From a virus, in the IMG/VR virus record IMGVR_UViG_3300031722_000043, positions 1 to 52,148 of that record: 52,148 nucleotides of DNA, one strand, 5' to 3'. This document shows, in pieces, positions 837 to 51,319 of the stretch (position 1 is the stretch's first letter; the number at the start of each line of letters is the position of its first letter). Below the pieces are notes generated by a model. That model did no database searches, was not told the origin of the DNA, and saw only the letters and a list, made by a program, of their open reading frames with translations. Position numbers and translations under genes: made by a program.

Positions 837-866
837 GAGTTTTCATAATAACTTAAAATCACCTTT
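814..866. promoter_or_regulatory. inverted repeat in the integrase leader
   Basis: AAAGGTGATTTT (814-825) is repeated as its exact complement AAAATCACCTTT (855-866) with a 29-base spacer. It can form a 12-bp stem in DNA or in the leader of an integrase transcript, or bind a dimeric regulator. It lies between the att core and the chosen integrase start at 1000. Role not established. Confidence 0.4.
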
Positions 867-999
867 TTTCATGCACAAAATTGAACCATTTTCAAAAAGT
901 TTTCAAAACACTACGTCAAACAGTGACATTATTTGTCAATCTGTGCCAAATGTTTTGTACAATTTTCAAAACGCCAAATCTTTTTCGCAATTAACAGGT

Positions 1000-10502: not shown

Positions 10503-10538
10503 AATATTTTATTGTTACGTGTTTTGAATGAGGTTTTA

Positions 10539-10573
10539 AAACAAGCCACCATCTTTCTCGTGATGGCTTGTTT
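10539..10573 (-). terminator. hairpin after the major capsid gene
   Basis: AAACAAGCCA (10539-10548) pairs with TGGCTTGTTT (10564-10573), a 10-bp stem whose outer A/T pairs give a U-rich tail on either strand. It follows the capsid gene on the minus strand and probably lowers expression of the genes downstream relative to capsid protein. Confidence 0.6.
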
Positions 10574-10583
10574 CTTTTTCTTA

Positions 10584-10608
10584 TCCCCCTTTAGGGGTTA
10601 GGGGTTCT
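10584..10608. repeat. CCCCTAAAGGGG repeat, copy 3 (capsid gene stop)
   Basis: Lies directly after the capsid reading frame and ends at its stop codon, as several other copies do with their genes. Confidence 0.7.
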
Positions 10609-20200: not shown

Positions 20201-23200
20201 AAGAGGTTTTTCAACACTATATGTTGGCTTCACCGGTTCCCCTTCAGGGGTTAGGGGTTCTTTCCTCTTAAACATAGGTATACCTTCACTGACCGACTGT
20301 TTCATGGAGTCAGTAACAGGGATAGACTGAACTTGTGAAACTTCTGGCATTTTAGCTTCTTTCTCGAATTGAGAAAAAGATATTTCTTCGTTTGTCTTTT
20401 TTATTTTTGTGTTTAGACCTATTGTTTCAATTTTTGCATCAAACGGTTTGCCTAATTTACTCATTACTTTAGGAACAATAGCATCGTAAAACGCTTCCAT
20501 TCCTTTTCCTCCAACTTTTAATCCATCTCCTTCAAAGGTTTCTTTTCCCTCGATAACTCCTTTGGCTATTTCCTTCCCTAAAGTTTCCTCTATATGGGAA
20601 ATATCCATCGTTTCATCCCTAATGATTCTATCCGTACCTTTTACAGCACTTACTACATAACCCTGAACTCTTTCACCTTGCTTATTGATAGCGTCAGACA
20701 TTTCATCTTTGGTTATGGTAATCTTATCAACCTGCTTACTTAAATCATATCGTTCTGCCTGTTGAGTTCCATTCGTCCATGCAATTCTATCAAATCCATT
20801 CTCGGCTGCATAACGCATCATCCTTCGGGCTGCAAGGTTTACCCATTGGTCGGTTTTCTGGAATGGCATATCGGGAACAGAATCTTCTTCAATAGAATTT
20901 AATTCTGAAAGAAGAGCTGCCATTTGACTATCTTTTTCAGGTTCGTATTTTCCCGCCCATTCTAATAAATTGGCTTCTCTTCTTTTCCCATTGTTATTTT
21001 CAGCAGCATCTTTATCTCTCAAAACGTCTAAATCCTGTCTAAGGGATTTCATTTCAGCCTGAATTTCATTTTTCCTTTGAATAAGTTTTGGATCACTAAA
21101 TCCTTCTTTCTTTCCTTTCTGTGCCCAATCGCTCTGAAACTCTTCAATAAACAATACCTTTTCACCGTTTACCGTCCGTTCATTGAATCGGACATGTGCA
21201 AGGATGTTTGGTTCTTCGTAATGGGATGAATGGAAGTTAGATGTATCAAACTTACTTTCTGGTCTTATTTGTGAAATTGCACCTTCGGCTTGTTCTCTTG
21301 TTCTGAAAGCTCCGGTATCTTGATGTGTTCCTCTATACCACGCCCACATGCCGTTTTCTTTATGTACTAAATGCAATTCTCCTGCATTTGATTCATTCTT
21401 TGGCATTGTCAACAACAATTCCTTGTAGTTTTTCCCACCAGGTAAAACGTATTGAGAAAATATTGCATCTGACTCTCTTTTTTCATCAATACTAGGTTCA
21501 AAATAGCCACCATTTATATTTGCGTAATATTCTGCATCTGATATATTGTTGTATTCTCCAACAAAATCGTTAATATCATTAAATACATCATAAGCGGTAA
21601 TTATCTTATCTCCTTTTATAACCTCTTTCACATCAATCCTGTTCTCGTCTATCCAATTCTGAACATCCGACTTAGTAAGTTTTTCAGGTAGTTCATCAAA
21701 TCCCATCCAATCCAACTCGGCTTGTTTAGCTCCATTCTTCAATAACATGGCTTTAAACTGGTCTTTCGTTCCGCGTTCCTGTTGTATCTTATCCAGTGCA
21801 TTTTCTACCGGGCTGTAAAATCCATTGTCGGATATTAATTTGTATTCTGGTCTTTCTTGTTCCCATTTGTAGGTTAGGGGTCCTTTTTCTACCTCATTCT
21901 TAAATTTCACAGCGTTGTCACGATCCGAAAACAAGAATCCTTTCGAAAATTTATTCCATGGTCGCCCACCTCCGTATGGATTATGTTTCCTGCCTATAGC
22001 TGCCATAGTATCATAATCGTCACTACGTCCGTTTATCTTCACATTATACAGTTGTTGTCCTGTTTGCGTATGTGTATAATCTTCCACCGGCATTAGTTTT
22101 CCTTCCGCCTTATTTTCTGTTATGGGTTCTTTACTGATGTTGGAATCTCCTACATTGTCCACACCGTCGTTATTGTCCCCCGTTTTTGTTAGTTGACGTG
22201 GTGTTACCTCCAAATCTTCAATTTCATTAAACAGTTCGTCAATATTCTTTGCTCCCGATAAATCAATGTTTTCAGTGCTTGGAATAGCATTTCTGTATTC
22301 AGACATTTTTTTCTGAATGGATGTTTGCATTTCTTCCGGAGTATAAAATACTCCACCTTTTAATATTTTCTTATATTCTTCAGCTTTTACTTCTTGCTTC
22401 ACCTGCCATTCCGTTGGCATATCAATCCTGTCAATTACCACTATTCGCGTACCTACTTTCGTTCCGGCTTGTTCAAAGGTGGAGGATGGTAGTTTTACTG
22501 AAGCTATTAAATGTGCATCAGGTGTTCCTTCTAAAAAATCATCTAATCGTTTGTCGGCTTGTCCTTGTGGAATAATGGCAACGATACGTCCATTGTTTCG
22601 CAAATGGTCATATGCTTTATTTAAATGCTCTATAGCTGTTTTCCCGCCACTTCCAAATGGTGGATTCATGGCTATGCCTTCAAACTTATTTACGGTGTTC
22701 AGGTTCTCAAATACATCATTGAGCATCTTCCGGTTTCCACCGCCTGATCGTGCATTAAGTTTTGAGAATAATGAATAGGAGGGTTCTACAACTGTTACAC
22801 TTGCTTTCTCTGGAAACCACATGGCTATTGCTCCATGACCGGCACTTGGTTCTAATGCACTTTCACCGGCTTGTAGTGATAACCATTCAACCATCTTTTC
22901 GCCTACCGGTTCGGGGGTAGCATAATAATCTGCTCCTTCGCGCTGGTCACGTCTGCCGGTGGTTTTTTGGTTGGTATTATAAACTAATACGGCTTTGCGG
23001 AATTCCGACAACGTTTCTTGTGCTTTTTTGTCGTATTCTTTTCCGCCTTTGCCCTGGCTAATGTTGGGTTTGTCTTTTCCTGAATTGAATAATACTCCTT
23101 CAGCAAACGACCGCAACAAGTCACGGGCTTGGTTTCCTATGGCCAGATTTTCGGTGGTCGATAATTTTTTATTGATCTTCTGGCCAAAGTCCGCTACTTC

Positions 23201-26200
23201 CTGATCGAGTCCCAATAATGGATATTCAAATATTGCATCCGATTCGTTACCGATTCTGTAGGGTCTTCCTTCTATTTGCAGTGCTGTAGTGCTCGAAATA
23301 GGCAATGATAGACTAATGAGTACCCGTTGGTGCTTTCCTGTCGTATCATGAAGTGAAATGCCTTCTTTTCCGGCTTCTTCCTGCACTACTATAATGTCTT
23401 TCCCTGAATGATCTTCATTGAACAATGCTACATTCTTTGATTTGTCTTTCTTGGGTGTATCTCCATTCATGCTGACAACACGACCTGGAAATGCTTCGTT
23501 TATCTGGTTGATGGCAGGATCATAGTTCAGTGTCTGTTCGTATTTCAGTAAGTCAGCATATTTGTTTTCAAACTGTTTGGCTTGTGTTCGCATAGTGTTC
23601 GCTTTTAGTGCTAACTCTGCTTTTTTTACAAGGTCATCAGTTTGTGCCATTTCTGCAATGTAACCATTTGCCAATTCGCGTGTCTGATCAAGTATCGACT
23701 GAAAGGGTGGTAATACATTGGCTTGCTTCCGGCGGTGGAATACAATTACTTTACGTCCTAAATCTAAATGATCCTGAATGCGCTGTATGTTCATGGATGC
23801 TTTCAACGATTCAAATAGCTTGGTGGTGTAGTTGTAATCACTGAATACGTTGTGTGCCGCGTCTGCAAGTCCTCCGAATTCCTCCGAATAGATTTCATTG
23901 AGTGCTTTATTGAATACTTCGGATTGCTCCAACGCTACTAACGGAAATTCCCTTGAATAGTCCTTGTCACTTTCAATGGCACGACCTGACATTACACCTT
24001 GCGCCATCAAACGTTCAGAAAAGTCAATTTCCTGCATGGCTATCGCTTCCGCATTGGCTTTTTGTTTAGTCTGCAAACGATGGAATTTCCATTCATAAGC
24101 GGAACCAAAGTTATTAAGGAAAAATTGCGCTTCGGGATTTACACGGCTGCCACGTCCGTTTACAATAGTATCATTTCCCCAATCGAATAACGAACCATTG
24201 GCATAACGCAGGTTAAAGTGTCCTTTGAATGGTGTGGCCGACAAAAATACTACTTTTGTATTTTCGTAGGCTCGTTTGGCACGTTCCTTTAGTCCTGGTT
24301 TAATATTTTCGTTATAGGCCTTTTGTAGTTGAAGTACTTTTTCTTCGAGCGATTTTACATTTAGATTACCAGGTGTTTTCTTTTCCTCATTTATTCTATT
24401 AAATAATTCCTGAATTTTAATGTAATCTGGGTTTATTGATTGCAACCTATTAAACGCTTGCCACTCCGATACATTGGAATGTGAATAGTGGGAATTAGTG
24501 GTAGAAGATGTGGCACCGCTTTTTTCTTCCATCAACCGGTGACTTTCATCATACATCACCAAATCAAAATCACGGTTTTTCAGCGCGTCATTGGCTCTGA
24601 AATTGGCATAAGTGGTAATGACTGCATTTTCGCCTGCATCTTTGGTAGAAGTAAGCGGAATAATCGTTAAACCGATATTTTCACCGTCTTTGATCCAGTC
24701 ACCAACTTTGGCTTCACTTGGTACTACAATAAGGATGTTTTTCTTTCCGCGCTTTTCAAATCGTTTGGCGACTCCCAGTCCGGTGTAGGTTTTTCCGGTA
24801 CCGGTACCATTGGTGAACAACATACCTTTTCCATGTGCGGCTTCATTGGTTTTGTGTTCTTCACCAAAGAAACGCTTTTCGGCTTTTAGTACATCGTCTT
24901 GTTGTTCGGGTAGTAGTAAAGGTAATGTTTCACGGACATTGGCTTCGTCCATGAGCGTTACCGGAATAGATTCAGCATTACGCTGTTCTATTATCTTTCG
25001 GACTGTGCGTTGCTTAAACGTTTCTGGTAATCCAACGTCAATTTTATTACCTGGTTCACTTGATCCGCCGTTAATAAGATGTCCTTCTGTGCTATCAATG
25101 CCATTTCCTCTGCCGTCAGTATCTCCGGTAGTAAATTTCTCAACTTCGGATGTTCCTGGCAATAGTTCGTTATTGCTTTGTTCTCCAAATAAAGAGGGCT
25201 GTAAATCACCACGGCTCTTGCTACCTGTGCGTCCGATTGTTTTTCCACTACCTTTCTTGATTCCATTTCCCACTGATCCGCTTGTTCCTCCGTCGACTGG
25301 AATAGGTTTTGCATCTCCGGGTACTTCATCGGTAGTTGTGCTATCTGGTTGGCTGTGTCTTGATCGATTAGATACATGTTCTTTATAATTAAAGTTTTTA
25401 ATGTCAAAATTTGCTACTTCTATGTTGCTGGTCATTCCCTGGGTTGGAATGCTTACTCTGGATAGTTCATAGAATCCACTCAGGTAAGGTTTAATTCCTT
25501 CTCCTAAGGCTTCTATCATTCGGGCCGAATAATCCGGGAATGTAATATCCCCATCTTCAAACAACATTTCTGTTACATCGAGTGCAATATCTGTTGTCTC
25601 TGAATCAAGACGTTTGAATTGTGGTTCCGGATCAGTGCGCCATACATCTTTCCCATCCGCAAGGTCTTCGTAATATTTCTTTGCTACTTGAATACTTTCA
25701 AGAGTATCATTGATAACTTGTTGTGCTGGTTCGGTTGAATGGTTTTTAACTGCTGATAAAACACGGGCAAATTCTTCTATTTCATAATTAAATCCTTCAG
25801 AAAATATCTTTGCCTTTGGAAGATCCATAACAGGCTCTCCTTTTCTGTTTCTCTCAAGAAACAAATAATTTTTTCTTAATTCCTGAATGTTTTGTACCGT
25901 TTCACTTGCTTCTCTATATATCGATACATGAATATTTTTTAAATCGAAGTCAACATGTCCTGTTGGGGATTTGATACTACCTTTTTCCCTCCATACCAGT
26001 TTTGAGGTGGGTAGGTTGTCATTACGAACTGATCTGATAAAGGATATTCTTTTCTTTGGTTGTTCTGTGATGATTTTGGTGCCTGTTTCTTTTCCATTAA
26101 GCAGTATGTTTTCAATCGTTCGTTTAAATTCCGGTTTTAATCCTAATTTTCCACCTAATTTGGCTAATTTTTCACGGAGGATTCTTTCGCGTTCAGTCCC

Positions 26201-29200
26201 AGGCTTTCCGTTATCTGGTTGATGACTTCCAACTTCTGCGATACCGTCATTCCCTGCGTGTTCGTTCGCTTGTATTCCTCCGCTACTTCCGGGAATACTT
26301 TTAAGATCATTGAACTGTTCTTGTCCGATAATGCTAATTTTTCCATGTGTAATTTTATTTAGTGTTTTTGATACGAGGTATTGTACATCTTCGTCCAACA
26401 AAGATAAGTCAATTTCTCCGTTTTTTATCTGTTCTGGTGTATAATTATTCAATAAATCTGATACCTGGTGCGCTGCTACTTCTGTGGCTTTCATAGCACT
26501 GTCTTCTCCCCAATATACTGAAGGGATATACTTTTCTATGTTTGGTATTTCCACCGTACTCAAATCTTCACCCTGAAACGCTATTTCAAAAGCTTTATGT
26601 GCTGTTTCATGCAAATAACTGTCTGCAAGTTCCGCAGCATCTTCATTGTGCTCTATATTTATAAATAAATCTTTCCCCAGTCGGACCGCAGCAATCTGTT
26701 GTCCGCTTTGCAAGTATTTTAATGCTTTTTGATAATCGGCATCGCTTACCATGCTTTTGTACTTTGCCAAAAAATCATCAGTACTTTTCATCACTTGTGC
26801 CGGAGTGGTGCCCACATGTAATGTCTTTTCCAGCCCGCGCACAATCTCTACAGCTGCCGCGTGGCGTTCTTCTGGTTTTGTACTGTTATTATAACGCTCT
26901 GTAGATGTTGGTTGTTCACTTTTTTGTAAACTTTCAGCGTTTTTTATATTATCAACCTGTTTATTATCAGTAGTGTTGTTTTGTGTATCAGATAACTTTT
27001 CATTATCCGGTTCGTAAATTGTTGTCTGTTCTTGAATCTTTACTGCTTCCGGTGTATCTTTATACTCAGCAAATGGCTTCTTTTGCTTCTTACCATCATA
27101 CAACCATTCTTTGAAATTATCACCCGCAGGAGTTATGGACTTAAAACCGTCCCATCCTTCGGAGTAATTACTCATATAAGCTGCTTTGGCTTCTTCCGCA
27201 CTATCAAAACCTAACATGACCTTACTTTCGTCAAAACTTCCGTCCGGAGAAATTTGATCAATAACAAATATTTGTCCCTGTTTAGGATTAGGACCAATAA
27301 ACACATCTATTGGATCATTATCATATCCAATGGTACCATCCAATTCACCGTAGTGATTTTGCATGGTTACACTCCATTTCTGACCGCCTTCGTCTTCTCC
27401 GGTACGTTCTGTGCCTTTCAGCGTTTCAATGGTTATATTGTGATGTTGTAAGTTTACACGGGCTTTTGCATAAATACCTGTTTCCTTCTGCTTTTCAGTT
27501 GGGTTGGTATTATGTTCTTGTTCGGAAATGTAATCGTCGAGTTCCTTTGTATCCTGTTGTTTTATTGCTTCCTGCATTTCAGCTTCAGCCTCCAATGCCA
27601 TTTGTTCAATTTCTGAAACAGATTGTTCGGTTCTTTCATTTCGCAATTCTTTTAATACCTGTGAACGCTCTTTGCCTTTGCCTGTTCTTAATTTTGTTTG
27701 TAATTTTCCTAAAAATTCATCAAGTTGTTCCTTTGTTTTGATTCCGTATTTTGATAGATATTCATTTCCATACGTATCTTTATTTTCAGATAAATAAGAT
27801 TTAACCTGGAGAGCTGCTATCCCACGTCCGGAATATTGTTGCAGAATTTCAGCCACATTCGTTTCAAACTGCTCAAAATTTTCTGCCGTGGTAAGATTGA
27901 AAAATCTTTCTCGTGTTAATTCTTCTGTTCCTGACTGTTGTCCGGGCTCTTGCTCCCCTCTAGGGGTTGGGGGTTCTTGACCCTGAGTTCTTTTATCGCG
28001 TTCACTTGCGCTTGTATCCGCTGATTTTTGGTTAATGCTGGTTTCATATTCGTTTTGTATGTTAGTGATAAAGTCTAATTGTTCGGGCGTAAAGTTAGTG
28101 ATACCCAGATAACTTTCCAAAATATCATCCGGAATTTGTTCCAGATAATTGAGTTCTTCAGGTGTGAAGCTTTCATAAACTCCATAATCTTGCTGATTAA
28201 GGTCGTAATTATTCCGTTTGGCTTCCGCTTGTTCTAACGCATGACTGTTACTTTTTGTTGATAAAAGTATTTCGTTTACCAGATTAAGTATTTCGTGATC
28301 CGATAGGTTTCTCACTCCGGGTATTTCTCCACCATTTCCATCTTCGCCGTAATCATTCCAAATGGCGTGGGCAAATTCAGTTGGTGTTAGTCCGTTCTGT
28401 TCATCAATTAAATTTCTTCTTTGCAACCGTTCCCCGTTCTTGTCACCAAATCCCAATTCATCGGCCATTCCTTTTTTTACTCCTTCAGTTTTCCATTTGA
28501 ATTTTTGACCGCCGGCAATGGCACGAAGAATGTAATCTTCCATGTCCAGATATTCGCCTAATTCTTGCTGACGTTTTTGAAATGGGGTAGTTCCTTTTGT
28601 TGTTTGTTCCGGAAGGTTCTCTTTGGGAATTTCTTCAATAATCGGTTTTTCATTCTGGATTTTACTTTCATCGAATACAATTAATTCTCTATTTCCTTCA
28701 ATACCATCGATATCTCTAACATAAGAATCATAACCTTTTGATTTATAGAAATTCGTCATTGCTTGCTCAAAACGCAATTCTTTATGTGTATTTACATATT
28801 TGACCATTTCATCTGATAAGTCCTCTGTTTTCTGAAAGCCTTTTTTCCCATCAGGGTTATAGGTGTTTTGCACATTAACAGTTACTCTACTTGCATTTTC
28901 CTTTTTATGGTAGGTGCTTGTAAATGGTTTATCTAAAGCAACAAACTTTCCAACAGGAAGACCTGAACTTTGTATTTGTGTTGAAGATTCAGAACCTTCA
29001 TCCTTTGTCGTATGCCAACCTGTTATGGATTTTGGTTGAACTTCTGTCGGTGTTTCAATAACTGGTGTCTGGTCTGCAAGTTCCTTAGCTAATCTTTCAG
29101 CTTCTTGTTTCTGTAATTGAAGTATTTCAGGCCGGGTATTGGGTACTTTTGGTGTTTCAACAACAACCGGTGCAGATGTTTTTGGCAAATAGGATTGTGC

Positions 29201-32200
29201 TGATACTAATTTTGCAGTGAGGTCTTCGTGTTGTTGTTTTAATGCAAGTCCTTTTGTTTCCTGTTTGGCTTCAATAGCTGCTTCCTCCTGCATATTTTTT
29301 GCTTTGGAAAGCAATTTGTTGGTTTCTTCCTTTAAACTGTTTGTAGCTCGTTGATTGTCGCTAATCTGACCTTGTAAACGTTTTACCTGTCTTCCTATTA
29401 ATGCCTGTGCAGCTTCTTCGCCTTTCGTTTCTTTGGTATAGGCGTATACCTGTTCATCATTCATACTATTGAAATCCGGTGTCCCATCTTTCAGTGTTGG
29501 ATATGATGTTTTCTGTTCAGTGTTTCCACCGTCCCCATTGTCCCCTGTCTTGGTTTCTTGCAAGGGTATTATATTCTCGATCGACACTTCCTGATCATTC
29601 ACCAACACTTTTCCCTCTTTACGCAACGTAGGATCTATTTGAATGATTCCTTGTTGCTGATCTCCATTGTCGTCTATGTAGTTAATTGTGTCACCGGGTA
29701 TCATACCGCTTATTTGCTTTTCAGGCAGAATATCAGTTTGTGCAACCATTTTAGTGGTTCCATTGTCTGCTGTTATTTCATATCCTTCTGGCGTTACATT
29801 GGTAATGGTCCCGTAGGTTCCATCGGTCAAACGTACAAATTCGTCAGTATTATATTCTTGGCTCTTGGCTCTTGGCTCTTGGCTCTGACTGGCGTACTGC
29901 TCCATTCCTTGTGAAATCACCTGTTGACGTTGTTCATAATCCTGCATCAACTGTGATTGAATAACCGACATACTTTCTTCCGGAGTAGTATTCGTTACTA
30001 TATCCAGGTTATCGGCGGTAGTAACTTGTGTGTTGCCATCTGCATCAACATAATAAACCGATTCATCCGAATTGGTTAAATCAACTGCATGTTCTCCATT
30101 CTCATCCAGAATGACCGACAAACCCGATTTTATAACAAAAGGGGGTGTTTTCTCGTCTGTTCCTTTTAATCGTACTGTTACTACTGTGTTGGTAGTTGGA
30201 TTAATTACTAAATTCTGGCCGGCTTGTTGTATTTGTGTTTCTGTATTTGCCCGGTCTGCTTCCTGCAATTTACGTGCTTTGGCTTCCGCTGCAACATAGG
30301 ACACAATAGATTCTTTTTGAATGTCTGACAGTTCAGTATCCTGCATTACTTCATCCAATACCCGCTTTTGCATTTCAGGATCTGATTTCACCACTTCTTC
30401 ACTGAAAGTTATTCCTGAACCTTCCAATTGTTTATCCATCGCTTGTTTTGCCTGAATAACACTGATTCCGGATTGAATGTGTGAGGTTGGATCGGTCACA
30501 TCTACTTCAACAGGTATGGTTGGATTAACAACGGTTTCGGGATTTGTATTTTCAATGGCTTGTTGATAACTTTCACGTGGATCATAATTCCGGCTCTTGT
30601 CATATTCCGACATGATGGATTGATGTACATCACCAATTGAAGCTGTTTTTGTAGGAGAATCACCCGGTATTGTAACTTCTTTTCCATAAGAATCAATTCC
30701 TACCAATTCTCCATTTTCATTTTTGCCTTTTACATAGATATTATTTCCATCTGAATCTTTAGCTGTAGTTATATTTCCGTGGGAAGTTGCTACTTTTTTG
30801 AGAGATTGTGCAAGTCTGTTGACAAAAGTATCTCTATCAAAATTTTCTCCTAATACTTGCTTGTTTCCGGCTTCTTTTGCTTTGTATGCTTCCTGAACAT
30901 CATTTAGTTTTGATATTTCAGTTTCATTTTTAATTATTTGTTCTTTATAATAGTCATGATTAGAAATTTTCATTCCATCATATTTTTCTTCTAATGGATT
31001 ATTATTTATATATTCTTTGTAGTGATCAATATTACTTTGTGCATCAGCTTTTTTCTGTTCAATGTATGCGTTTTTATCATTAAAATATTCATCATGCATA
31101 GATCGTACGTATGAATCGTTACCATTAAATCCATTTTCAAAATCAGAAATCGTTTTATCCGCTTGTTTTGTACTTAGTTTGCTATCCTTATACCCTTTTA
31201 CTACTTCATTGAAATGCGAAGTAGTCATTGTAACTGAATTTTCAAGCATGGATTGTGTAACGTCAACAATTGAACCATCGGGGCGCATACCTTGTACTTT
31301 GCCTTCTTTGCTTGGAAGTATTTCTACTGCTTTGCCCTTTTCATCAAGTGCAAATGTAAGTTCGCGTTGTGCGTTTCTTCTTGTTTCGTTTCCTTTTATT
31401 CCTGCATAAGTAGCAAATGGCATTGTGGCAAGACCAAATATAAGACCTGATTCAGCATTTTTTGCAAGTCGGTGAGTAAACTCATCCATGGTAACTCCTT
31501 TATCCATTACCATTTTATCGGTTGCCATTTTCACGAGATCAATAGCTTCCATGGTTCCAACTCCATGTACAGCACTTTTCATTGAAGTATTGATAATCTT
31601 CTGAACAAGTGTTGGACTTTGTTTTGCTGCTGCTTCGATAATATCGGCACCGGCTTTCATCATTAGTTCGGGATTTGCAGTGAGTACTTTACTCATTATA
31701 TATTTTCCTGCATCCTTTGGAATAAATTTTTCAAGGTATTTTCCTATAGGAAGTGTGTAAGCAAGCATATAACCTACCGATGCAGCTTGTCTTTGTGCTT
31801 GAGTAAATTGTTTTCCTGTAGTTTGCGAATAATCATCTATTGCCTGAAGTCCTTCACCCGATCCCATTAATGCGAATGCTGTAACTGTTGCAGGTGTTAA
31901 GGCTCCACCGGATAACATATCAGCTCCTACAAGTCCCACCATTGGGGCAGCGCTTACAATTGATTCGCCAAATGTTCCTGCTAATTTTGGTGCGCTTTTA
32001 GTTTGCCAATCACTTAATTCTTTATTAGATTTTGTTATGTTTCCTTTTAATTTTTCATAGTTAGCATCATGTACTGTATACGGATCATTTTCTAATATCA
32101 GTGAAGCAATGTTATTCACACCTTTTCCAATTCCACTAAACATTCCTGCCGAAGTTCCGCTAAATACTTTCCAAAGGTGACTGATGTTATCGTTTGAGAA

Positions 32201-32977
32201 TGCAGGCGCGTTTAATTCCTGCTGATCTTTAGCTTCTTTAGCTTCTTGTTCTGGATTAAATGTTATTGGACTGCCCTTTACTTCTACTTTGTAATCATCA
32301 TACACACTTTTAGGTTTTGTTTCACCTATTGGTATTGTCGAAATTGGATTCTTTGCTGTATAATCCGGATTTGCAAGTAATAACTGTTTATCCATTTCTT
32401 CCAGTTGTGGATCGGTAGCTATTTTTATCTGGGTTGTAGGTGCAAATGTTTCAGGTGTCGACCGCAACAAGTCTTGTTGGTCAGTTATAACTCCTTTATC
32501 GTTTTGAAATTTCGTTTCATTAATCAACTTTTGTGTTAGTTGTTGATTTGGTAAACTTACATCACCTATTTTGGTTGTGCCTGGTATATTACCATTCAAT
32601 ACCTTTTTTGCTTCTATATCCGATAACGGTATTTGTTGTACCGATTGTTCTCCGGTATTTGTTTCAGGGATTTTTTCGGTTGGAATTGTTTTCTGATCCG
32701 TTAATGGTCCCGATTGTCCCCCGGAATTCATTTCTTTCGGTATTGGAATTCCACCAGGTGTAGGCATAGAGAAAAACTCAGGAAACTTACTGTTTACTTC
32801 AATATGTGAATCATACTTACCGCTATTCAAAGTCGCCGAATAATCATGCGCCGATTGGATTAATTTCAGATCGTTATTAAATTCCGGAAACTTAGCCATT
32901 AATTCTTCGTTGGTTAAGTTGGGTTTAGCTTTGATAGTTGAATCAAAGTCTAATAATGCTTGTTGAATGTCTGGCAT
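17009..32977 (-). CDS. giant 5322-residue polyvalent protein, probably ejected
   Basis: A single frame of 5322 codons. Parts in order: hydrophobic helices (about 325-525); a KOW/SH3-like stretch (about 1040-1140); an ART-like region with GYDSYVRD...LIVFDESKI (about 1315-1445); a pyrophosphatase-like domain with DNDPIDVFIGP (about 1886); a zinc metallopeptidase with HETAH (2123-2127) and a later glutamate; an SF2 helicase with GTGTGKT (from 2724), YDESH (2809-2813) and QIEGRPYRIG (about 3234); an N6 DNA methyltransferase with LEPSAGHG and NPPF (3438-3441); polyvalent-associated domains (about 3660-3960); and a C-terminal LPD38-like helical domain (about 4700-5250). This matches the polyvalent proteins of phages and conjugative elements that travel into the host with DNA and counter its defences. 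It follows the ejection-type genes by four bases. Linkers contain in-frame repeats at 20237, 27953 and 29857. Confidence 0.85.
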   Translation of the reverse strand: MPDIQQALLDFDSTIKAKPNLTNEELMAKFPEFNNDLKLIQSAHDYSATLNSGKYDSHIEVNSKFPEFFSMPTPGGIPIPKEMNSGGQSGPLTDQKTIPTEKIPETNTGEQSVQQIPLSDIEAKKVLNGNIPGTTKIGDVSLPNQQLTQKLINETKFQNDKGVITDQQDLLRSTPETFAPTTQIKIATDPQLEEMDKQLLLANPDYTAKNPISTIPIGETKPKSVYDDYKVEVKGSPITFNPEQEAKEAKDQQELNAPAFSNDNISHLWKVFSGTSAGMFSGIGKGVNNIASLILENDPYTVHDANYEKLKGNITKSNKELSDWQTKSAPKLAGTFGESIVSAAPMVGLVGADMLSGGALTPATVTAFALMGSGEGLQAIDDYSQTTGKQFTQAQRQAASVGYMLAYTLPIGKYLEKFIPKDAGKYIMSKVLTANPELMMKAGADIIEAAAKQSPTLVQKIINTSMKSAVHGVGTMEAIDLVKMATDKMVMDKGVTMDEFTHRLAKNAESGLIFGLATMPFATYAGIKGNETRRNAQRELTFALDEKGKAVEILPSKEGKVQGMRPDGSIVDVTQSMLENSVTMTTSHFNEVVKGYKDSKLSTKQADKTISDFENGFNGNDSYVRSMHDEYFNDKNAYIEQKKADAQSNIDHYKEYINNNPLEEKYDGMKISNHDYYKEQIIKNETEISKLNDVQEAYKAKEAGNKQVLGENFDRDTFVNRLAQSLKKVATSHGNITTAKDSDGNNIYVKGKNENGELVGIDSYGKEVTIPGDSPTKTASIGDVHQSIMSEYDKSRNYDPRESYQQAIENTNPETVVNPTIPVEVDVTDPTSHIQSGISVIQAKQAMDKQLEGSGITFSEEVVKSDPEMQKRVLDEVMQDTELSDIQKESIVSYVAAEAKARKLQEADRANTETQIQQAGQNLVINPTTNTVVTVRLKGTDEKTPPFVIKSGLSVILDENGEHAVDLTNSDESVYYVDADGNTQVTTADNLDIVTNTTPEESMSVIQSQLMQDYEQRQQVISQGMEQYASQSQEPRAKSQEYNTDEFVRLTDGTYGTITNVTPEGYEITADNGTTKMVAQTDILPEKQISGMIPGDTINYIDDNGDQQQGIIQIDPTLRKEGKVLVNDQEVSIENIIPLQETKTGDNGDGGNTEQKTSYPTLKDGTPDFNSMNDEQVYAYTKETKGEEAAQALIGRQVKRLQGQISDNQRATNSLKEETNKLLSKAKNMQEEAAIEAKQETKGLALKQQHEDLTAKLVSAQSYLPKTSAPVVVETPKVPNTRPEILQLQKQEAERLAKELADQTPVIETPTEVQPKSITGWHTTKDEGSESSTQIQSSGLPVGKFVALDKPFTSTYHKKENASRVTVNVQNTYNPDGKKGFQKTEDLSDEMVKYVNTHKELRFEQAMTNFYKSKGYDSYVRDIDGIEGNRELIVFDESKIQNEKPIIEEIPKENLPEQTTKGTTPFQKRQQELGEYLDMEDYILRAIAGGQKFKWKTEGVKKGMADELGFGDKNGERLQRRNLIDEQNGLTPTEFAHAIWNDYGEDGNGGEIPGVRNLSDHEILNLVNEILLSTKSNSHALEQAEAKRNNYDLNQQDYGVYESFTPEELNYLEQIPDDILESYLGITNFTPEQLDFITNIQNEYETSINQKSADTSASERDKRTQGQEPPTPRGEQEPGQQSGTEELTRERFFNLTTAENFEQFETNVAEILQQYSGRGIAALQVKSYLSENKDTYGNEYLSKYGIKTKEQLDEFLGKLQTKLRTGKGKERSQVLKELRNERTEQSVSEIEQMALEAEAEMQEAIKQQDTKELDDYISEQEHNTNPTEKQKETGIYAKARVNLQHHNITIETLKGTERTGEDEGGQKWSVTMQNHYGELDGTIGYDNDPIDVFIGPNPKQGQIFVIDQISPDGSFDESKVMLGFDSAEEAKAAYMSNYSEGWDGFKSITPAGDNFKEWLYDGKKQKKPFAEYKDTPEAVKIQEQTTIYEPDNEKLSDTQNNTTDNKQVDNIKNAESLQKSEQPTSTERYNNSTKPEERHAAAVEIVRGLEKTLHVGTTPAQVMKSTDDFLAKYKSMVSDADYQKALKYLQSGQQIAAVRLGKDLFINIEHNEDAAELADSYLHETAHKAFEIAFQGEDLSTVEIPNIEKYIPSVYWGEDSAMKATEVAAHQVSDLLNNYTPEQIKNGEIDLSLLDEDVQYLVSKTLNKITHGKISIIGQEQFNDLKSIPGSSGGIQANEHAGNDGIAEVGSHQPDNGKPGTERERILREKLAKLGGKLGLKPEFKRTIENILLNGKETGTKIITEQPKKRISFIRSVRNDNLPTSKLVWREKGSIKSPTGHVDFDLKNIHVSIYREASETVQNIQELRKNYLFLERNRKGEPVMDLPKAKIFSEGFNYEIEEFARVLSAVKNHSTEPAQQVINDTLESIQVAKKYYEDLADGKDVWRTDPEPQFKRLDSETTDIALDVTEMLFEDGDITFPDYSARMIEALGEGIKPYLSGFYELSRVSIPTQGMTSNIEVANFDIKNFNYKEHVSNRSRHSQPDSTTTDEVPGDAKPIPVDGGTSGSVGNGIKKGSGKTIGRTGSKSRGDLQPSLFGEQSNNELLPGTSEVEKFTTGDTDGRGNGIDSTEGHLINGGSSEPGNKIDVGLPETFKQRTVRKIIEQRNAESIPVTLMDEANVRETLPLLLPEQQDDVLKAEKRFFGEEHKTNEAAHGKGMLFTNGTGTGKTYTGLGVAKRFEKRGKKNILIVVPSEAKVGDWIKDGENIGLTIIPLTSTKDAGENAVITTYANFRANDALKNRDFDLVMYDESHRLMEEKSGATSSTTNSHYSHSNVSEWQAFNRLQSINPDYIKIQELFNRINEEKKTPGNLNVKSLEEKVLQLQKAYNENIKPGLKERAKRAYENTKVVFLSATPFKGHFNLRYANGSLFDWGNDTIVNGRGSRVNPEAQFFLNNFGSAYEWKFHRLQTKQKANAEAIAMQEIDFSERLMAQGVMSGRAIESDKDYSREFPLVALEQSEVFNKALNEIYSEEFGGLADAAHNVFSDYNYTTKLFESLKASMNIQRIQDHLDLGRKVIVFHRRKQANVLPPFQSILDQTRELANGYIAEMAQTDDLVKKAELALKANTMRTQAKQFENKYADLLKYEQTLNYDPAINQINEAFPGRVVSMNGDTPKKDKSKNVALFNEDHSGKDIIVVQEEAGKEGISLHDTTGKHQRVLISLSLPISSTTALQIEGRPYRIGNESDAIFEYPLLGLDQEVADFGQKINKKLSTTENLAIGNQARDLLRSFAEGVLFNSGKDKPNISQGKGGKEYDKKAQETLSEFRKAVLVYNTNQKTTGRRDQREGADYYATPEPVGEKMVEWLSLQAGESALEPSAGHGAIAMWFPEKASVTVVEPSYSLFSKLNARSGGGNRKMLNDVFENLNTVNKFEGIAMNPPFGSGGKTAIEHLNKAYDHLRNNGRIVAIIPQGQADKRLDDFLEGTPDAHLIASVKLPSSTFEQAGTKVGTRIVVIDRIDMPTEWQVKQEVKAEEYKKILKGGVFYTPEEMQTSIQKKMSEYRNAIPSTENIDLSGAKNIDELFNEIEDLEVTPRQLTKTGDNNDGVDNVGDSNISKEPITENKAEGKLMPVEDYTHTQTGQQLYNVKINGRSDDYDTMAAIGRKHNPYGGGRPWNKFSKGFLFSDRDNAVKFKNEVEKGPLTYKWEQERPEYKLISDNGFYSPVENALDKIQQERGTKDQFKAMLLKNGAKQAELDWMGFDELPEKLTKSDVQNWIDENRIDVKEVIKGDKIITAYDVFNDINDFVGEYNNISDAEYYANINGGYFEPSIDEKRESDAIFSQYVLPGGKNYKELLLTMPKNESNAGELHLVHKENGMWAWYRGTHQDTGAFRTREQAEGAISQIRPESKFDTSNFHSSHYEEPNILAHVRFNERTVNGEKVLFIEEFQSDWAQKGKKEGFSDPKLIQRKNEIQAEMKSLRQDLDVLRDKDAAENNNGKRREANLLEWAGKYEPEKDSQMAALLSELNSIEEDSVPDMPFQKTDQWVNLAARRMMRYAAENGFDRIAWTNGTQQAERYDLSKQVDKITITKDEMSDAINKQGERVQGYVVSAVKGTDRIIRDETMDISHIEETLGKEIAKGVIEGKETFEGDGLKVGGKGMEAFYDAIVPKVMSKLGKPFDAKIETIGLNTKIKKTNEEISFSQFEKEAKMPEVSQVQSIPVTDSMKQSVSEGIPMFKRKEPLTPEGEPVKPTYSVEKPLEQYATEINAYNDKIKAINDRKKELKKEHDDKKISNIDFVSEARKLNDEKFDLETKKKRIEAGTSTPEDFEETPLTPPESGINGGGQKTPPPTTSRSTKLAEEVGENLPEKLRDELDAKMERGMKKIEFAIQEAYQDQHLAVKLFQDKLKENGLVITPLNDWHRRVSALGGMNDSQMDAYEHRFNLPIMKEVNRMEKISSYRDIENYMMLKHGLERNDFMRAQEAAALEADGKNIPEGLAEKDFSGITAIEEEIKKPAQEFIDEFEGLHDTTKLWDLIKKSTTNALKVGNDNGRISKTEYDDIVNRFKYYIPLRGFDKDIAEDKYDYSPDMGTHFVAPLIKAKGRISRPETPFAYIFSMNHSAITEGNKNNLNQIWVRLARQDKSGLLILKQSWYKKTGETENGLPIWEQQSPEWNANPEQYDLNIQKFEADMQELAEKKEAIQKRGKLNIGLFVKPKQAKQHEIHVYENGTEHVVYINANPKIARAINGDNRVEAGAFFDGLSVVNRWMAANFTSRNPLFMVTNFERDITFATTTLGVKEGIIYQANFLKNVPVAVKAITNMMIGTGNVQNKYDQYAEEFVMNGGKTGYTHIVEIKSVQKRIENEIKKGKINEPSVVFRLFELGNSVAENTTRLATYITSREAGRSIYEAVSNAKEVTVNFNTKGSGALGADEMRKSFLFFNVAIQALSNILKTTKEHPWRMAGLLASFVATGILMPLLSRLLGGEEAEQAYNNLSDWDRQNNLCIWTGSGYVKWSIPQELRVFHALGDNLYRFSQGKVTKTELAVNTMVGLTDLLPVNPMGAMKTDGKEWKMFANTLTPDLMKPWVQLAINTTYTGGNVFNPYANPSDPGFVQSSKNKKGEPYAPAILVWAAQEMDKQSDGDGVMPGKISPNPDVINHIMRGYMGGLYTIFVKSVDSGDKVIEGKELKVRDTPISALYTSKEDIKESDAGLRKEYSDVKAAITDEKHYISKYKSGAIEIYRKGGDLAKVAEYTTKMQQLSTKKYTMLKFITAGISKLEEQIKDAQDPDVMQQQINKFKKIAIRIDATKDEKELEDIQEEMSR
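20237..20262. repeat. CCCCTAAAGGGG repeat, copy 4 (in frame in the giant gene)
   Basis: Encodes EPLTPEGEP in a linker of the giant protein. Diverged copy (CCCCTTCAGGGG on the plus strand). Confidence 0.65.
27953..27978. repeat. CCCCTAAAGGGG repeat, copy 5 (in frame in the giant gene)
   Basis: Encodes QEPPTPRGEQE in a linker before a conserved segment of the giant protein. Confidence 0.7.
29857..29887. repeat. 7-nt tandem array encoding SQEPRAK in the giant gene
   Basis: Plus strand heptamer GGCTCTT repeated three times with two flanking partial units. Because seven bases are read in three frames in turn, the array codes for the heptapeptide SQEPRAK. Confidence 0.75.
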
Positions 32978-47066: not shown

Positions 47067-47891
47067 TTACTCGTTTGAGTAGGCCATCGAAAATTCTTTT
47101 GGAATATATACACCTACCGGGATAGGCTTGGCTGATTCAATGGTAGTGGTGTATTCCTGTTCAGTATACTCTCTTTTATTTTCCTTTGCTTCTTGCGATC
47201 TACGCTTCTCGTTTTTAATCAGATAATCATTGATAAGCATCATTCCACGGTCAACATTATAGGTCTGAACAATAGCCGAATTGGTTGAAATCTGTTGCCC
47301 TTCTACTTCTACATTGAAATCTATCTGGTAGAACTTCTTTTGATCGTCGTTGTTCTCTCCGTCTTCATTGTCCGGATTGTCCCCTTGAATCTCTTTCTTT
47401 AGATTGTCAATCAAAATAATACCGGTATCAAATTCACGTATAGAAGTAAGTACAAACCCTGACATATAATTCAGTTCAATGTAATCCTTCAGGAGTAGTA
47501 ATGCGGTGGTCAAAGTTGTAGCGTAAAATATAAACTTTGTTTTCTTATTTGAAATATCCGCAACGGCCATAAATGGACGTAGATAAGTATTTTCCAATAG
47601 ATAGGCCACACGTCGTTGGTTGCTTACTTCCACTTCTTTCACGTCACCACATTCCATGTGAAATTGAAGTTGTGCCAGAATATCCCGGTCTATCAGGGTG
47701 CCACGCTCAAAAATCACTTCATTACGTTCTATTGGCACGACTTCTGATGTATCTTCATCAATAAATTCTTCAGTCCACGTTTTCAATACCCTGCTTACTG
47801 TGAATTTATTGATCATCTTTTTGAGTTCAGATGTGGTGAATCTTTCCTCTGTATTCCTTGTCTCTACTACTTTTACTTCATCTTTTTTCAT
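47067..47891 (-). CDS. hypothetical protein with possible internal duplication
   Basis: The 274-residue protein has an N-terminal helical part (residues 15-100) and two similar later segments: KFIFYATTLTTALLLLKDYIELN...ITS-like text (about 122-155) and STNSAIVQTYNVDRGMMLINDYLIKN (about 200-230), both followed by a V/I-rich strand. Between them is an acidic linker (GDNPDNEDGENNDDQ) derived from a GGGGAC-type repeat. No family recognised. Confidence 0.5.
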   Translation of the reverse strand: MKKDEVKVVETRNTEERFTTSELKKMINKFTVSRVLKTWTEEFIDEDTSEVVPIERNEVIFERGTLIDRDILAQLQFHMECGDVKEVEVSNQRRVAYLLENTYLRPFMAVADISNKKTKFIFYATTLTTALLLLKDYIELNYMSGFVLTSIREFDTGIILIDNLKKEIQGDNPDNEDGENNDDQKKFYQIDFNVEVEGQQISTNSAIVQTYNVDRGMMLINDYLIKNEKRRSQEAKENKREYTEQEYTTTIESAKPIPVGVYIPKEFSMAYSNE

Positions 47892-47895
47892 TGTA

Positions 47896-48117
47896 TTAAT
47901 TTTTTGAGGGGTTTACTTCATTATCTAAATTATTCAGAAAAGTTGTGTACTTGCCAATGGCCGGATCAATTTCAAATTCAGCAATTACTATTTCGCCATG
48001 TTTATGTTGCGCCATGTTTGTTTCAAAATTGGTAACCACGGTTACCTGTTGTCCAAAATCGTGAGTTGCTTCTACAACTTCACACTGTTCATTTCTTCTG
48101 TAGGTTGTGTTCCACAT
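47896..48117 (-). CDS. small hypothetical protein
   Basis: The 73-residue protein MWNTTYRRNEQCEVV is mixed, no motif. Its first 46 bases overlap the end of the HD-domain gene, which is unusual; a later start would leave only a short protein. Keep with caution. Confidence 0.35.
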   Translation of the reverse strand: MWNTTYRRNEQCEVVEATHDFGQQVTVVTNFETNMAQHKHGEIVIAEFEIDPAIGKYTTFLNNLDNEVNPSKN

Positions 48118-48947
48118 AGTATTTCTTGATTTGAAAATTGTTGTTTATATTCTTTACGTATCATTCTTCCTGTCATTTCGTTGGTTTCTTCGTTGCTGAA
48201 AGTTTCTTCCCGCAGCAATCGAAGCGGATCAGTTTCTTTCTTCACATCCCCTTTAGGGGCTTGGGGTTCTTCTAACCACGTTTCTTCCCCTGTTTCCTTG
48301 TGTTCGTATACCCATTTGTACATATACGCACAAAGTTGTTTGTACCATATTTTTTGGTCATATACCGGTGTCCAGTTACTTCCTGTTTTTTGAGCATGTA
48401 CCATGTATTCCAGTATTTCGCCTGTTGCATTGGTCATAGGAAGATATAGCCATTCGGGTACCAATGTTATGGATAGTTTGTCAGCAAAACACAATTTCGA
48501 AAGTGTGGCACCTTTCTTTTTGGTATAGTAGCGTGAATGGTAACGGGCGAAATCCTGCCAGGTGGTTTTACGAACTCGTTTTTTGAGTGTTACAAATTCG
48601 TATAACCAAATAGGGTGGGGGGATATGGTTTTTTTAGTTACTTTCCAACCGGCATTTAAATACAGTTGAAGTACCCATTCGTCAACGTATAATTTGACGC
48701 ATTTATCAGTTTGCCATCCATCAAATAAAAAGTGCATGATCCGAGCTCCCAGTTCCGGATGTATTTTTCCTTCCGGACCATCCATATTCTGTTTTCCCCA
48801 ATATCCCAAGTCATGTACAAAAAATGCTATCCAAATGCGAGGATCCCACGGAAAACCGTAAAGCTTGATCCATGCTATCGCAACAAATACAGGGTGCAAC
48901 AAAAAACAATGAGCACCATACAACAATGATTTAGTTCCTGTTTTCAT
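48072..48947 (-). CDS. HD-domain phosphohydrolase-like protein
   Basis: Start at 48947 (MKTGTKSLLYGAHCF) avoids a 38-base overlap with the previous gene; 291 residues. Motifs: H (GAHCF), HD in FFVHDLGYWG (about residue 40), H in HPELGARIMHF (about 60), H in ARYHSRYY (about 130) and D in FADKLSI (about 152): the HD-superfamily metal ligands in order. HD enzymes cut phosphate bonds in nucleotides or signal molecules. A repeat-derived insert (EEPQAPKGDVKKE) lies near residue 227. The substrate is unknown. Confidence 0.7.
   Translation of the reverse strand: MKTGTKSLLYGAHCFLLHPVFVAIAWIKLYGFPWDPRIWIAFFVHDLGYWGKQNMDGPEGKIHPELGARIMHFLFDGWQTDKCVKLYVDEWVLQLYLNAGWKVTKKTISPHPIWLYEFVTLKKRVRKTTWQDFARYHSRYYTKKKGATLSKLCFADKLSITLVPEWLYLPMTNATGEILEYMVHAQKTGSNWTPVYDQKIWYKQLCAYMYKWVYEHKETGEETWLEEPQAPKGDVKKETDPLRLLREETFSNEETNEMTGRMIRKEYKQQFSNQEILCGTQPTEEMNSVKL
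48244..48270. repeat. CCCCTAAAGGGG repeat, copy 13 (in frame in the HD gene)
   Basis: Encodes EPQAPKGDVKKE in the HD-domain protein, the same peptide as in the Rep-like protein. Confidence 0.75.
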
Positions 48948-48954
48948 ATTATAA

Positions 48955-49269
48955 TTATGTGAATTGATATGTTCTATTATTTCCAGTGCCATATTTCTGA
49001 GGTTTAATTGTAGTTGTAAATGGAAAATCTGTTTTGTTTACTTTATCCAGTGCATCTTTAATTGGTTTGGCATTGGTAAAGAATTTACGTTCTATATTTT
49101 CATATTTAATTTTGACAACATACCGGCCTTCTCCAAATGGTGTTTTTACACCCGGTGTAAAATCAAGAACTTCTATTTCGCAATTTGTGACATCTGTGAT
49201 TGATATTTGTTGTACCGGAAATATGTTTTTTTCTTCAGGCTTTATTCCTAAGTCAGAAAATTTCTTCAT
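48955..49269 (-). CDS. small protein overlapping the DGR reverse transcriptase, candidate accessory
   Basis: The 104-residue protein (MKKFSDLGI) has a beta-rich pattern with TPFGEGRYVVKIKYENIERKFFTNAKPI and ends FPFTTTIKPQKYGTGNNRTYQFT, a type of small protein that I have seen in several mobile elements and that resembles OB-fold single-stranded DNA binders. It overlaps the end of the reverse transcriptase by 17 bases, so it is translated with it. The usual DGR accessory Avd (a four-helix protein) is not seen, and this one does not resemble it. Candidate DGR partner. Confidence 0.5.
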   Translation of the reverse strand: MKKFSDLGIKPEEKNIFPVQQISITDVTNCEIEVLDFTPGVKTPFGEGRYVVKIKYENIERKFFTNAKPIKDALDKVNKTDFPFTTTIKPQKYGTGNNRTYQFT

Positions 49270-50254
49270 GTTTAAGTATCTTTTTTTGTAAATTTTTCGA
49301 GTTGCAATGTTTCGCCCATCCTAAATGGGGTGCAATCTGCATTTTATATTCTTTTGGATCCAGTTCTTTCTTGTTTAGTTTTGCAGCCTTCCTGCAAAAT
49401 CGTACTTTAATCATTTTTCGCATTAAAATATGCGTATGGTAGAAGACATATCCAACGAGATCAATTCCACGAGCTTCTACCGGAAACACTTGATAATTCC
49501 TTTTTAATTGTAAATTTAATTTTTCAGTCAGATATTCATTAATGTCAACCAATAAAGCATGTAAATAGGGCTTATCAGGTGCCAGTATCACCATATCATC
49601 TGCATACCGGTAATAGTACTTAACTTTCTTTTCTTCCTTTAGGTAGTGATCGAAATAGCTTAAATACAAGTTTGCGAAAAATTGACTCAGATAATTTCCG
49701 ATCGGAGCACCGGGTGCACTATCAATAATATCATCAAGCAATTTTAATAACCGTTTATCCTTTATCTTCTTTCTGATTATATACTTCAGTATTGTATGAT
49801 CAATCGTTGGATAGAACTTCTTAATATCAAGTTTCAAACAATACTGTGTATTTTCAATGTCATTTAAATCCCTTTTCAAATCCTTTAATACAGCATGAAT
49901 TCCTTTTCCTTTTATACAAGCGTAACTGTGTGAAATGAAAACTGAAACCCATACAGGTTCTAAAATATTCATGATAGCATGATGTACGACCCGGTCTTTA
50001 AATGGAAGTCTGAAAATTTCCCGTTCCTTTGGTTCGTAAATTTTAAAAACACTGTATACTGAAGTTTTATAAATTCCGGATATTAATTCGTCATACAATT
50101 GATCAATGTTTCGCTCAACATTTTTTTCGAAAATCTTTACACCATATTGCCCGGATTTACCTCTCCGGGCTTTCTGGTATGCAAGCATCAAATTGTCTTT
50201 TGTGACTACCTTGTCAAATAAATCAGTTTTTCTTTTCATATGCCTGGCTTTCAA
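49253..50254 (-). CDS. DGR reverse transcriptase
   Basis: The 333-residue enzyme has RT motifs in order: LDIKKFYPTID (142-152, motif A), IGNYLSQFFANLYL (185-198, motif B-like, with the GxxxSQ form typical of DGR enzymes), YADD (217-220, motif C) and LNLQLKRNYQVF (motif D/E). It lacks a maturase or endonuclease domain. It lies just upstream (on the map, left) of a template repeat and two variable repeats that it should read. Start may be 50254 (MKARHMKRK) or 50239 (MKRK). It makes adenine-mutagenised cDNA from the template that replaces the variable repeats. Confidence 0.93.
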   Translation of the reverse strand: MKARHMKRKTDLFDKVVTKDNLMLAYQKARRGKSGQYGVKIFEKNVERNIDQLYDELISGIYKTSVYSVFKIYEPKEREIFRLPFKDRVVHHAIMNILEPVWVSVFISHSYACIKGKGIHAVLKDLKRDLNDIENTQYCLKLDIKKFYPTIDHTILKYIIRKKIKDKRLLKLLDDIIDSAPGAPIGNYLSQFFANLYLSYFDHYLKEEKKVKYYYRYADDMVILAPDKPYLHALLVDINEYLTEKLNLQLKRNYQVFPVEARGIDLVGYVFYHTHILMRKMIKVRFCRKAAKLNKKELDPKEYKMQIAPHLGWAKHCNSKNLQKKILKHEEIF

Positions 50255-50338
50255 AAATGGAACTTTCTCGTTGGATACTAATACCAGTGAAAGATGAGTC
50301 GTTTTTTGCTAAGAAGCAAGGCCTTTGTCCTTTTAATT

Positions 50339-50419
50339 ACCAGTTGGGAACTGGAACCTGCATTCGAATTCGTATTATCGTAATTCGTATTGTTCAAACC
50401 GAACGCCGAAGCAGAACCA
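50339..50419 (-). repeat. DGR template repeat (TR)
   Basis: An 81-base non-coding repeat between the RT gene and the first target gene. Read in the target frame on the minus strand it would give SASAFGLNNTNYDNT, then NSNAGSSSQLV: Asn-rich (AAC/AAT codons) as in other DGR templates, since AAY codons give the widest amino-acid choice when adenines are changed. It holds 20 adenines on the sense strand; the variable repeats differ from it only at such adenines (13 for VR1, 16 for VR2). Confidence 0.93.
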
Positions 50420-50443
50420 GCGAAGACAAACAGCCCATAATTA

Positions 50444-50821
50444 TTATCCTATTTGAATCTCTTTCCAAACATCCTTAAACTGAGTGGCTGAATACTCTGC
50501 CGTTTCCTCGTCAAAATTGACCAGACGGGAACCGGAACCCGCAATCGAATACGCATCATCGTAATGCGTAAAGGGCAAACCGAACGCCGAAGCAGACATT
50601 CTAAACCATGCACGCCATTTTTTCTCTTTCCAATTATCCCAATCGGGTTTTTTCTTTTCATTCAAAGCTTCAGTTATAACTATACCCTTGTAGTAATTTT
50701 CAAAGTGGGTACGTAAATCTTCTGGTACATTCGAAAAATCAACAACAGGTCTACCCGCTAACTGAAATGCTTCTTCTGTTGTTTCCGGTCTCTTTTTTTT
50801 CAATTTGTCTTGTTTTTCCAT
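50444..50821 (-). CDS. DGR target protein 1
   Basis: The 125-residue protein has a variable repeat at residues about 76-101 and a conserved end GSRL...FDEETAEYSATQFKDVWKEI (to 125). The N-terminal part (about 25-70) has RPVVDFSNVPEDLRTHFENYYKGIVITEALNE. It has no signal peptide and no membrane span. It is a paralogue of the next gene, 12 bases away. The family resembles small Bacteroidota phage proteins that end in a GSRL and tyrosine/aspartate-rich variable segment. Its ligand is unknown; the segment TR-like SASAFGL stays constant. Confidence 0.85.
   Translation of the reverse strand: MEKQDKLKKKRPETTEEAFQLAGRPVVDFSNVPEDLRTHFENYYKGIVITEALNEKKKPDWDNWKEKKWRAWFRMSASAFGLPFTHYDDAYSIAGSGSRLVNFDEETAEYSATQFKDVWKEIQIG
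50520..50596 (-). repeat. DGR variable repeat 1 (VR1)
   Basis: Aligned without gaps to the template (offset 181 bases) it differs at 13 positions, every one a template adenine on the sense strand; the rest are identical. The changed codons give P, F, H, D, A, Y, I, G and R in place of template N, N, N, N, T, N, N, S and Q. Confidence 0.95.
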
Positions 50822-50833
50822 TCTTTTTATTTA

Positions 50834-51319
50834 TTAAAGTGATAACATGTCTCTAAACTCGTTTTTAAATTTCTCTCCGACAATTTTTGCATTTTCTGAT
50901 TTTAATAAACTCAGGCGGGAACCGGAACCCGCACCCGAATACGTACAAACGTAAGCCGAATGGCACAAACCGAACGCCGAAGCAGAACCATTATTCAAAA
51001 AATAAGGATAATGTCTGTATTTATCAGAGTTATAAATATCAATTCTTTCACCTTCATTGAAAGCTTCAGCAATTACTACACATTTATAAGTAGCTTTAAA
51101 AAAATCACGTAAATCTTCAGGTACGCAACTAAAATCAGGTACTGAAGGACGACCTGTTTCACTGAGTACATCTTCAAATGAGTTAATTCTTTCCTCAACT
51201 GGTTTTTGGAAAAACTCTTTCCCAAAGGTTTCCTCTAAAGCAGATTTTAACGCGGATGGATTACCATTGTAAAGTTGCCTGGCCGTGGTGTCACTAATTT
51301 GAATTGTTTTTGTCTTCAT
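50834..51319 (-). CDS. DGR target protein 2
   Basis: The 161-residue protein has its variable repeat at residues about 110-136. Before it lies the same constant segment as in target 1 (RPSVPDFSCVPEDLRDFFKATYKCVVIAEAFNE), and after it a similar end (GSRL...FKNEFRDML). It has a longer N-terminal part (1-45, KTIQISDTTARQLYNGNPSALKSALEETFGKEFF) absent from target 1. No signal peptide. Adjacent upstream gene of the target pair, so one template feeds two targets. Confidence 0.85.
   Translation of the reverse strand: MKTKTIQISDTTARQLYNGNPSALKSALEETFGKEFFQKPVEERINSFEDVLSETGRPSVPDFSCVPEDLRDFFKATYKCVVIAEAFNEGERIDIYNSDKYRHYPYFLNNGSASAFGLCHSAYVCTYSGAGSGSRLSLLKSENAKIVGEKFKNEFRDMLSL
50912..50990 (-). repeat. 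DGR variable repeat 2 (VR2)
   Basis: Aligned without gaps to the template (offset 571 bases), 16 differences, all at template adenines on the sense strand. The constant flanks TCTGCTTCGGCGTTCGGTTT and the GTTCCxGTTCCC end are intact. VR1 and VR2 differ from each other at many of these sites, so both have been mutated independently. Confidence 0.95.

Follow-up and report, generated by a model that had tools for sequence, protein, structure and literature searches.

The window, i.e., the whole 52,148-base IMG/VR virus record analysed here, carries a diversity-generating retroelement (DGR) in which one template repeat (TR) has diversified the variable repeats (VRs) of two small target genes. Our main reading, to which we assign a probability of roughly 0.7, is that the reverse transcriptase (RT) of this DGR works with P104, a protein other than Avd, and acts on targets that are not part of the virion; this figure leaves out the host-factor step considered below.

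Diversity-generating retroelement of the window

All features of the cassette are encoded on the minus strand (Table 1), and all of its ORFs are intact. The TR is non-coding and lies between the short target gene and the RT gene. VR1 was aligned with TR positions 50339–50415 and VR2 with positions 50341–50419. Every difference falls at a template adenine, with probabilities of arising by chance of 4e-10 for VR1 and 2e-13 for VR2, which identifies a DGR of one template and two used repeats. The original prediction of adenine mutagenesis with both repeats in use is thus supported, and its coordinates and counts were reproduced. A scan of all 52,148 bases revealed no further TR or VR copies.

Table 1. 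Features of the DGR cassette in the window.
Feature	Coordinates	Strand	Details
Long-type target gene	50834..51319	-	161 aa; holds VR2; 25 codons after VR; phrog_11581
VR2	50912..50990	-	79 nt; 16 differences, all at TR A
Short-type target gene	50444..50821	-	125 aa; holds VR1; 24 codons after VR; phrog_11581
VR1	50520..50596	-	77 nt; 13 differences, all at TR A
Template repeat TR	50339..50419	-	20 A; target-frame reading SASAFGLNNTNYDNTNSNAGSSSQL
Structured RNA between TR and RT	50240..50330	-	three covarying helices
DGR reverse transcriptase	49253..50239	-	328 aa from ATG; 333 aa from TTG at 50254; motifs YADD, IGNYLSQ
P104	48955..49269	-	104 aa, basic, pI 9.2; 17-nt overlap with RT gene; phrog_19665

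The RT ORF matched RVT_1 (E = 3e-16) and the PHROG reverse transcriptase family (E = 6e-125), and its nearest named relatives are RTs of crAss-like phages (56–60%). Matches of the RT in a defence library reflected general RT similarity only and were set aside. The element had been described as complete on the strength of its RT, TR and two VRs, all of which are present; the P104 gene and the structured spacer RNA had been overlooked. Assignment to a podophage fits a P22-like portal match (E = 2.5e-21), which falls short of proof.

Several other features of the record were noted. The two genes 3′ of the cassette (48072–48992 and 47067–47891, minus strand) had no Pfam match above the cut-off, and the second matches phrog_35807, of unknown function. 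A 5322-aa ORF (17009–32977, minus strand) occupies nearly a third of the record and, by reading, contains parts resembling helicases and methyltransferases, a make-up also seen in phage polyvalent proteins. A candidate tail protein gene with a GDSL lipase domain (6423–8648, minus strand) contains no VR copy. At the opposite end of the record lies an integrase-like gene with a Phage_int_SAM_5 domain (829–2259, plus strand), so the phage may be temperate.

Fixed and hypervariable sites

TR-offset sites 56, 63, 70 and 71 are changed in VR1 and VR2 alike, to the same base at three of the four, and the corresponding codon changes are GCA>GCG, AGT>GGT and CAA>CGT/CGC. Offsets 56, 63 and 70 correspond to TR adenines at −13, −6 and +1 relative to the Arg codon of a conserved Gly-Ser-Arg-Leu block. 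Among 202 related VRs, these sites carry G in 57/57, 180/184 and 162/162 cases, respectively, while site −18 carries all four bases (40 A, 32 C, 78 G and 48 T). The −13 site is a third codon position where the change in the window is synonymous, yet G occupies it in all 57 cases. Judged from these alignments, four differences per window VR are fixed TR/VR differences and not products of random mutagenesis. The original attribution of all differences to mutagenesis accordingly applies to 9 sites in VR1 and 12 in VR2, which are hypervariable, and does not extend to the about four per VR in the fixed 3′ block. The pattern of an IMH/IMH*-like fixed 3′ block is therefore present. Behind the VRs, hairpin stems in the window reach only 4 bp; a hairpin at this position was rejected as unconvincing (stems of 4.6 bp versus 3.9 bp in mononucleotide shuffles).

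P104 and the spacer RNA

In 86 of 95 small-target loci, a relative of P104 is encoded directly 3′ of the RT, and in 88 of the 95 it is adjacent or fused to it (fused in loci L022 and L050). P104–RT fusions number nine ORFs in all, including Hankyphage p00 and BT-TP2. In several other DGRs P104 lies upstream of the RT, in the slot of BPP-1 avd; in locus L173 it is found at 857–1216, between a VR (697–812) and the TR (1246–1361), and in the archaeal virus ANMV-1 it follows the RT. From this adjacency and fusion, P104 is very probably a partner of the RT. No convincing Pfam or PDB relative of P104 was found, and comparison with BPP-1 Avd gave no similarity (hhalign probability 0.1%). The bAvd family (PF22296) was absent from the window and 13 relatives, with the BPP-1 control positive at 2e-37; PF05635, sought as Avd with no positive control, was not found either. 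The predicted structure of P104, from an alignment of 11 close sequences, was poor (pLDDT 43).

P104 may already have been mentioned, unnamed, on the authority of a reference 12 that we take to be Wu 2018. It is to its reference 12 that PMC10053308 credits one DGR-associated protein without a Pfam family. A small Hankyphage ORF near the RT was singled out by Benler 2018 (PMC6199706) by Avd-like size and charge only; it may or may not be the P104 domain. The fusions make the question of what replaces Avd directly testable.

The 91-nt spacer between TR and RT forms three predicted helices with 11 pairs, each with changes on both sides among 59 sequences. Overall, 92.3% of cells pair, and 150 two-sided changes were counted against 38.5 ± 6.4 in shuffled and 10–37 in slid controls; the structure was derived from the alignment on which it was scored, which favours it, yet the margin is large. 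By this measure the spacer is a strongly covarying RNA. The Rfam model RT-17 matched over the spacer with E = 0.023, below its gathering score.

Distribution and activity in related loci

Relatives were collected by RT search (80 loci from IMG/VR), P104 search (18 loci) and target-family search (74 loci in named bacterial genomes, almost all of Bacteroidota). About 100 phage and prophage loci, again nearly all from Bacteroidota, share the layout of the window, with a recurrent geometry: the VR of a target of about 125 aa lies mostly 175–200 nt upstream of the TR, and that of a target of about 155 aa mostly 560–660 nt upstream. With two targets in 66 loci and three in 15, the two-target arrangement, earlier singled out as worth attention, is the usual layout of a large and little-studied lineage, and not a peculiarity of this phage. 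Across 186 distinct TR/VR pairs from 96 loci, 2612 mismatches fall at template A and 48 elsewhere; since the pair-finding script tolerates mismatches almost only at template A and so selects A-biased pairs, the totals characterise the collection and are no test of it; for the window itself, the pattern stands on the chance values given above.

In a VR-masked tree of 60 loci, the short and long labels of the targets require 8 changes, against about 40 in shuffles. The pair is therefore mostly old, and the short and long genes appear to represent mostly two old paralogous lines. In the subclade of the window, the long gene groups with short-type genes, which suggests a later replacement there; many forks of the target tree are weak.

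Evidence of activity comes from near-identical relatives. Phage loci L090 and L092 have an identical TR (0/91 sites differing) and have diverged at 12/178 VR sites and at 9/1746 sites elsewhere; for the Elizabethkingia prophage loci L105 and L114, the corresponding values are 0/76, 23/152 and 57/1811. The predicted contrast of variable VRs and a constant TR was thus borne out on sequences of close relatives, from which it follows that elements of this lineage are active. The copy in the window is, with high likelihood, still active as well, a conclusion carried over from these relatives.

Targets lacking an RT nearby were considered as fixed, non-DGR relatives of the family, and this was rejected: 12 of 20 genomes without an RT near the target have a related RT elsewhere, and in 10 of these 12 the family member matches the TR beside the distant RT, differing from it only or nearly only at A. 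Most such 'orphans' are therefore remote targets. Extra VRs of the target family were also observed 6–9 kb from the TR in loci L074 (12240–12307), L125 (19355–19429) and L141 (10201–10278), which indicates that the TR reaches remote targets. In Aquimarina algiphila (L123), targets and a TR-like repeat occur and no RT was found on the DNA examined; this locus is possibly decayed or served in trans. The target family with a matching DGR was also seen outside Bacteroidota, in metagenome-assembled genomes titled Helicobacteraceae (L169) and Clostridia (L143 and L153), which may be binning errors or host jumps.

Target proteins and their genomic setting

The targets are acidic and hydrophilic, and searches returned no convincing Pfam, NCBIfam or PDB family; phrog_11581 is of unknown function. 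The model of the 161-aa target (mean pLDDT 84.9) is helical on either side of the VR, while the VR itself has a pLDDT of 50–56. Against the PDB this model matched no chain at E ≤ 10, and its matches were uncharacterised phage proteins only. As to a C-type lectin fold, a helical model with low confidence in the VR thus stands beside a 27-residue VR core that, in sister DGRs, is matched by that of large fibre-like targets (hhalign 89% over 27 columns); this match makes it possible that the targets carry a reduced lectin hairpin on a different scaffold.

The Pfam neighbours of window-type DGRs include HNH, DNA methylase, DnaA-C, RecT, ssDNA-binding, ParB and HTH families, and no virion genes are found among the 25 commonest Pfam families beside them. 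In the window, about 8 kb separates the cassette from the portal gene, an interval that includes two DNA methylase genes and an HTH gene. In the Bacteroides phage BI-TP1, the TR (6532–6649) serves a nearby tail gene, gp12, Mtd_N-like by annotation, and a second target, gp84, which lies among methyltransferases at a distance of 56 kb in the record and whose VR differs at 14 positions, all A. The targets of the BT-TP2 TR are the end of a giant protein and, on the other side of the record junction, a family member beside HTH genes; the Versailles member (10181–10762) lies among recombination and replication genes. The family members of all three phages lie in early regions, whereas BI-TP1 and BT-TP2 have their tail-protein targets by the RT. 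Given the early gene setting, the helical model with no PDB match and the remote second targets in BI-TP1 and BT-TP2, the targets are probably not tail fibres; from their gene position, we consider a non-virion nature probable.

Proposed mechanism and alternative explanations

In this DGR without Avd, a single transcript would carry the TR followed by the structured spacer. The RT, presumably with P104 in view of their adjacency and fusion, would copy the TR with errors at A, and the cDNA would replace about 25 matching codons in two paralogous small proteins. To judge from the fixed differences, replacement would end at the Gly-Ser-Arg-Leu block, a putative 3′ boundary that would keep the TR-to-VR direction. 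The products would be small, probably cytoplasmic early proteins showing the varied loop on a helical scaffold, through which the phage would bind a variable host factor. This last step is the weakest: binding of a host factor or a counter-defence partner is a tentative proposal, held at somewhat below even odds.

In the ordinary role of DGRs, the targets would be small virion receptor-binding proteins that alter host attachment. We regard this as unlikely, even though tail proteins make up the majority of known phage DGR targets (PMC8144416). The resemblance of the VR core to large fibre-like targets leaves room for such a role, one TR varies both a tail or giant protein and a family member in BT-TP2 and BI-TP1, and the Versailles member is annotated 'tail protein'. 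That label, however, comes from HHpred alone, and the tail-protein target, where present, is a separate gene. The targets, at 125–161 aa, have no recognised stalk or anchor domain, and their genes lie among early and replication genes, far from the structural module. Export or expression during lysogeny, altering the host surface as in superinfection exclusion, appears less likely again: the VR type is as in fibre-like targets, relatives occur in bacterial genomes (probably prophages) and the BT-TP2 member adjoins HTH regulators, but the acidic, hydrophilic composition argues against it, as does the fact that no signal peptide or transmembrane stretch was evident in the sequences, read by eye.

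Two further explanations concern the element itself. Some relatives lack an RT on the DNA examined, which would favour a relic whose repeats were diversified once and whose system is now dead; in the window, however, intact ORFs, zero non-A differences within the aligned repeats and close relatives with variable VRs and an invariant TR make this improbable. That the repeats are alike through plain gene duplication and drift has a negligible probability: the targets are indeed paralogues, but the chance values given above and a non-coding TR beside the RT speak against it, and the A-only pattern over 186 pairs refutes it.

We thus favour a DGR acting with P104 on non-virion targets. A broader reading is that of a widespread phage DGR lineage, with P104 and not Avd, dedicated to hypermutating small helical intracellular proteins, so that phages would evolve new binders to host factors within the cell in addition to new receptor specificities; we advance it as a conjecture, with odds of about one in three. 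If the targets do function intracellularly, then phages turn the random diversification of proteins against host factors. To our knowledge, such an intracellular role has so far been suggested from one phage group. As small single-domain proteins, the targets are easy to express and to screen for partners.

Comparison with known systems

The mechanism is that of known DGRs, and the novelty lies in parts: P104 for Avd, the covarying spacer RNA, and targets that are all small and apparently non-virion. The BPP-1 DGR (mtd, avd, TR, brt) and the window have in common a non-coding TR next to the RT, A-specific differences between TR and VR, a TR-to-VR direction of transfer and fixed 3′-edge differences; the latter, in BPP-1, are those of IMH and IMH*, to which the fixed differences of the window were likened, the function of the block here being putative. 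Unlike BPP-1, the window has no Avd, encodes P104 3′ of the RT and has two small targets. Its VRs are internal, followed by 24–25 codons, and not at the C-terminal end as in the BPP-1 type; BPP-1 has an 8-bp hairpin after the VR, whereas the window has none of that strength.

Hankyphage p00 (PMC6199706) resembles the window in an RT of the same broad group and a P104 domain, but there P104 is fused to the RT (434-aa CDS) and a giant C-type lectin protein carries the annotated VR at its end. The tentaclin phages nd4 and nd12 (PMC10743442) likewise have one TR and two target genes; their targets are large C-type lectin proteins of differing architectures, whereas those of the window are small paralogues. 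A close parallel for the targets is the Quimbyvirus/LoVEphage type. Benler 2021 (PMC8008677) described in Quimbyvirus a small non-structural DGR target among methyltransferases and a tRNA ligase, to which BI-TP1 gp84, of the same family as the window targets, would correspond by its surroundings. In that type the small protein is a remote second target and an Mtd-like tail protein the first, whereas in the window both targets are small and lie beside the RT.
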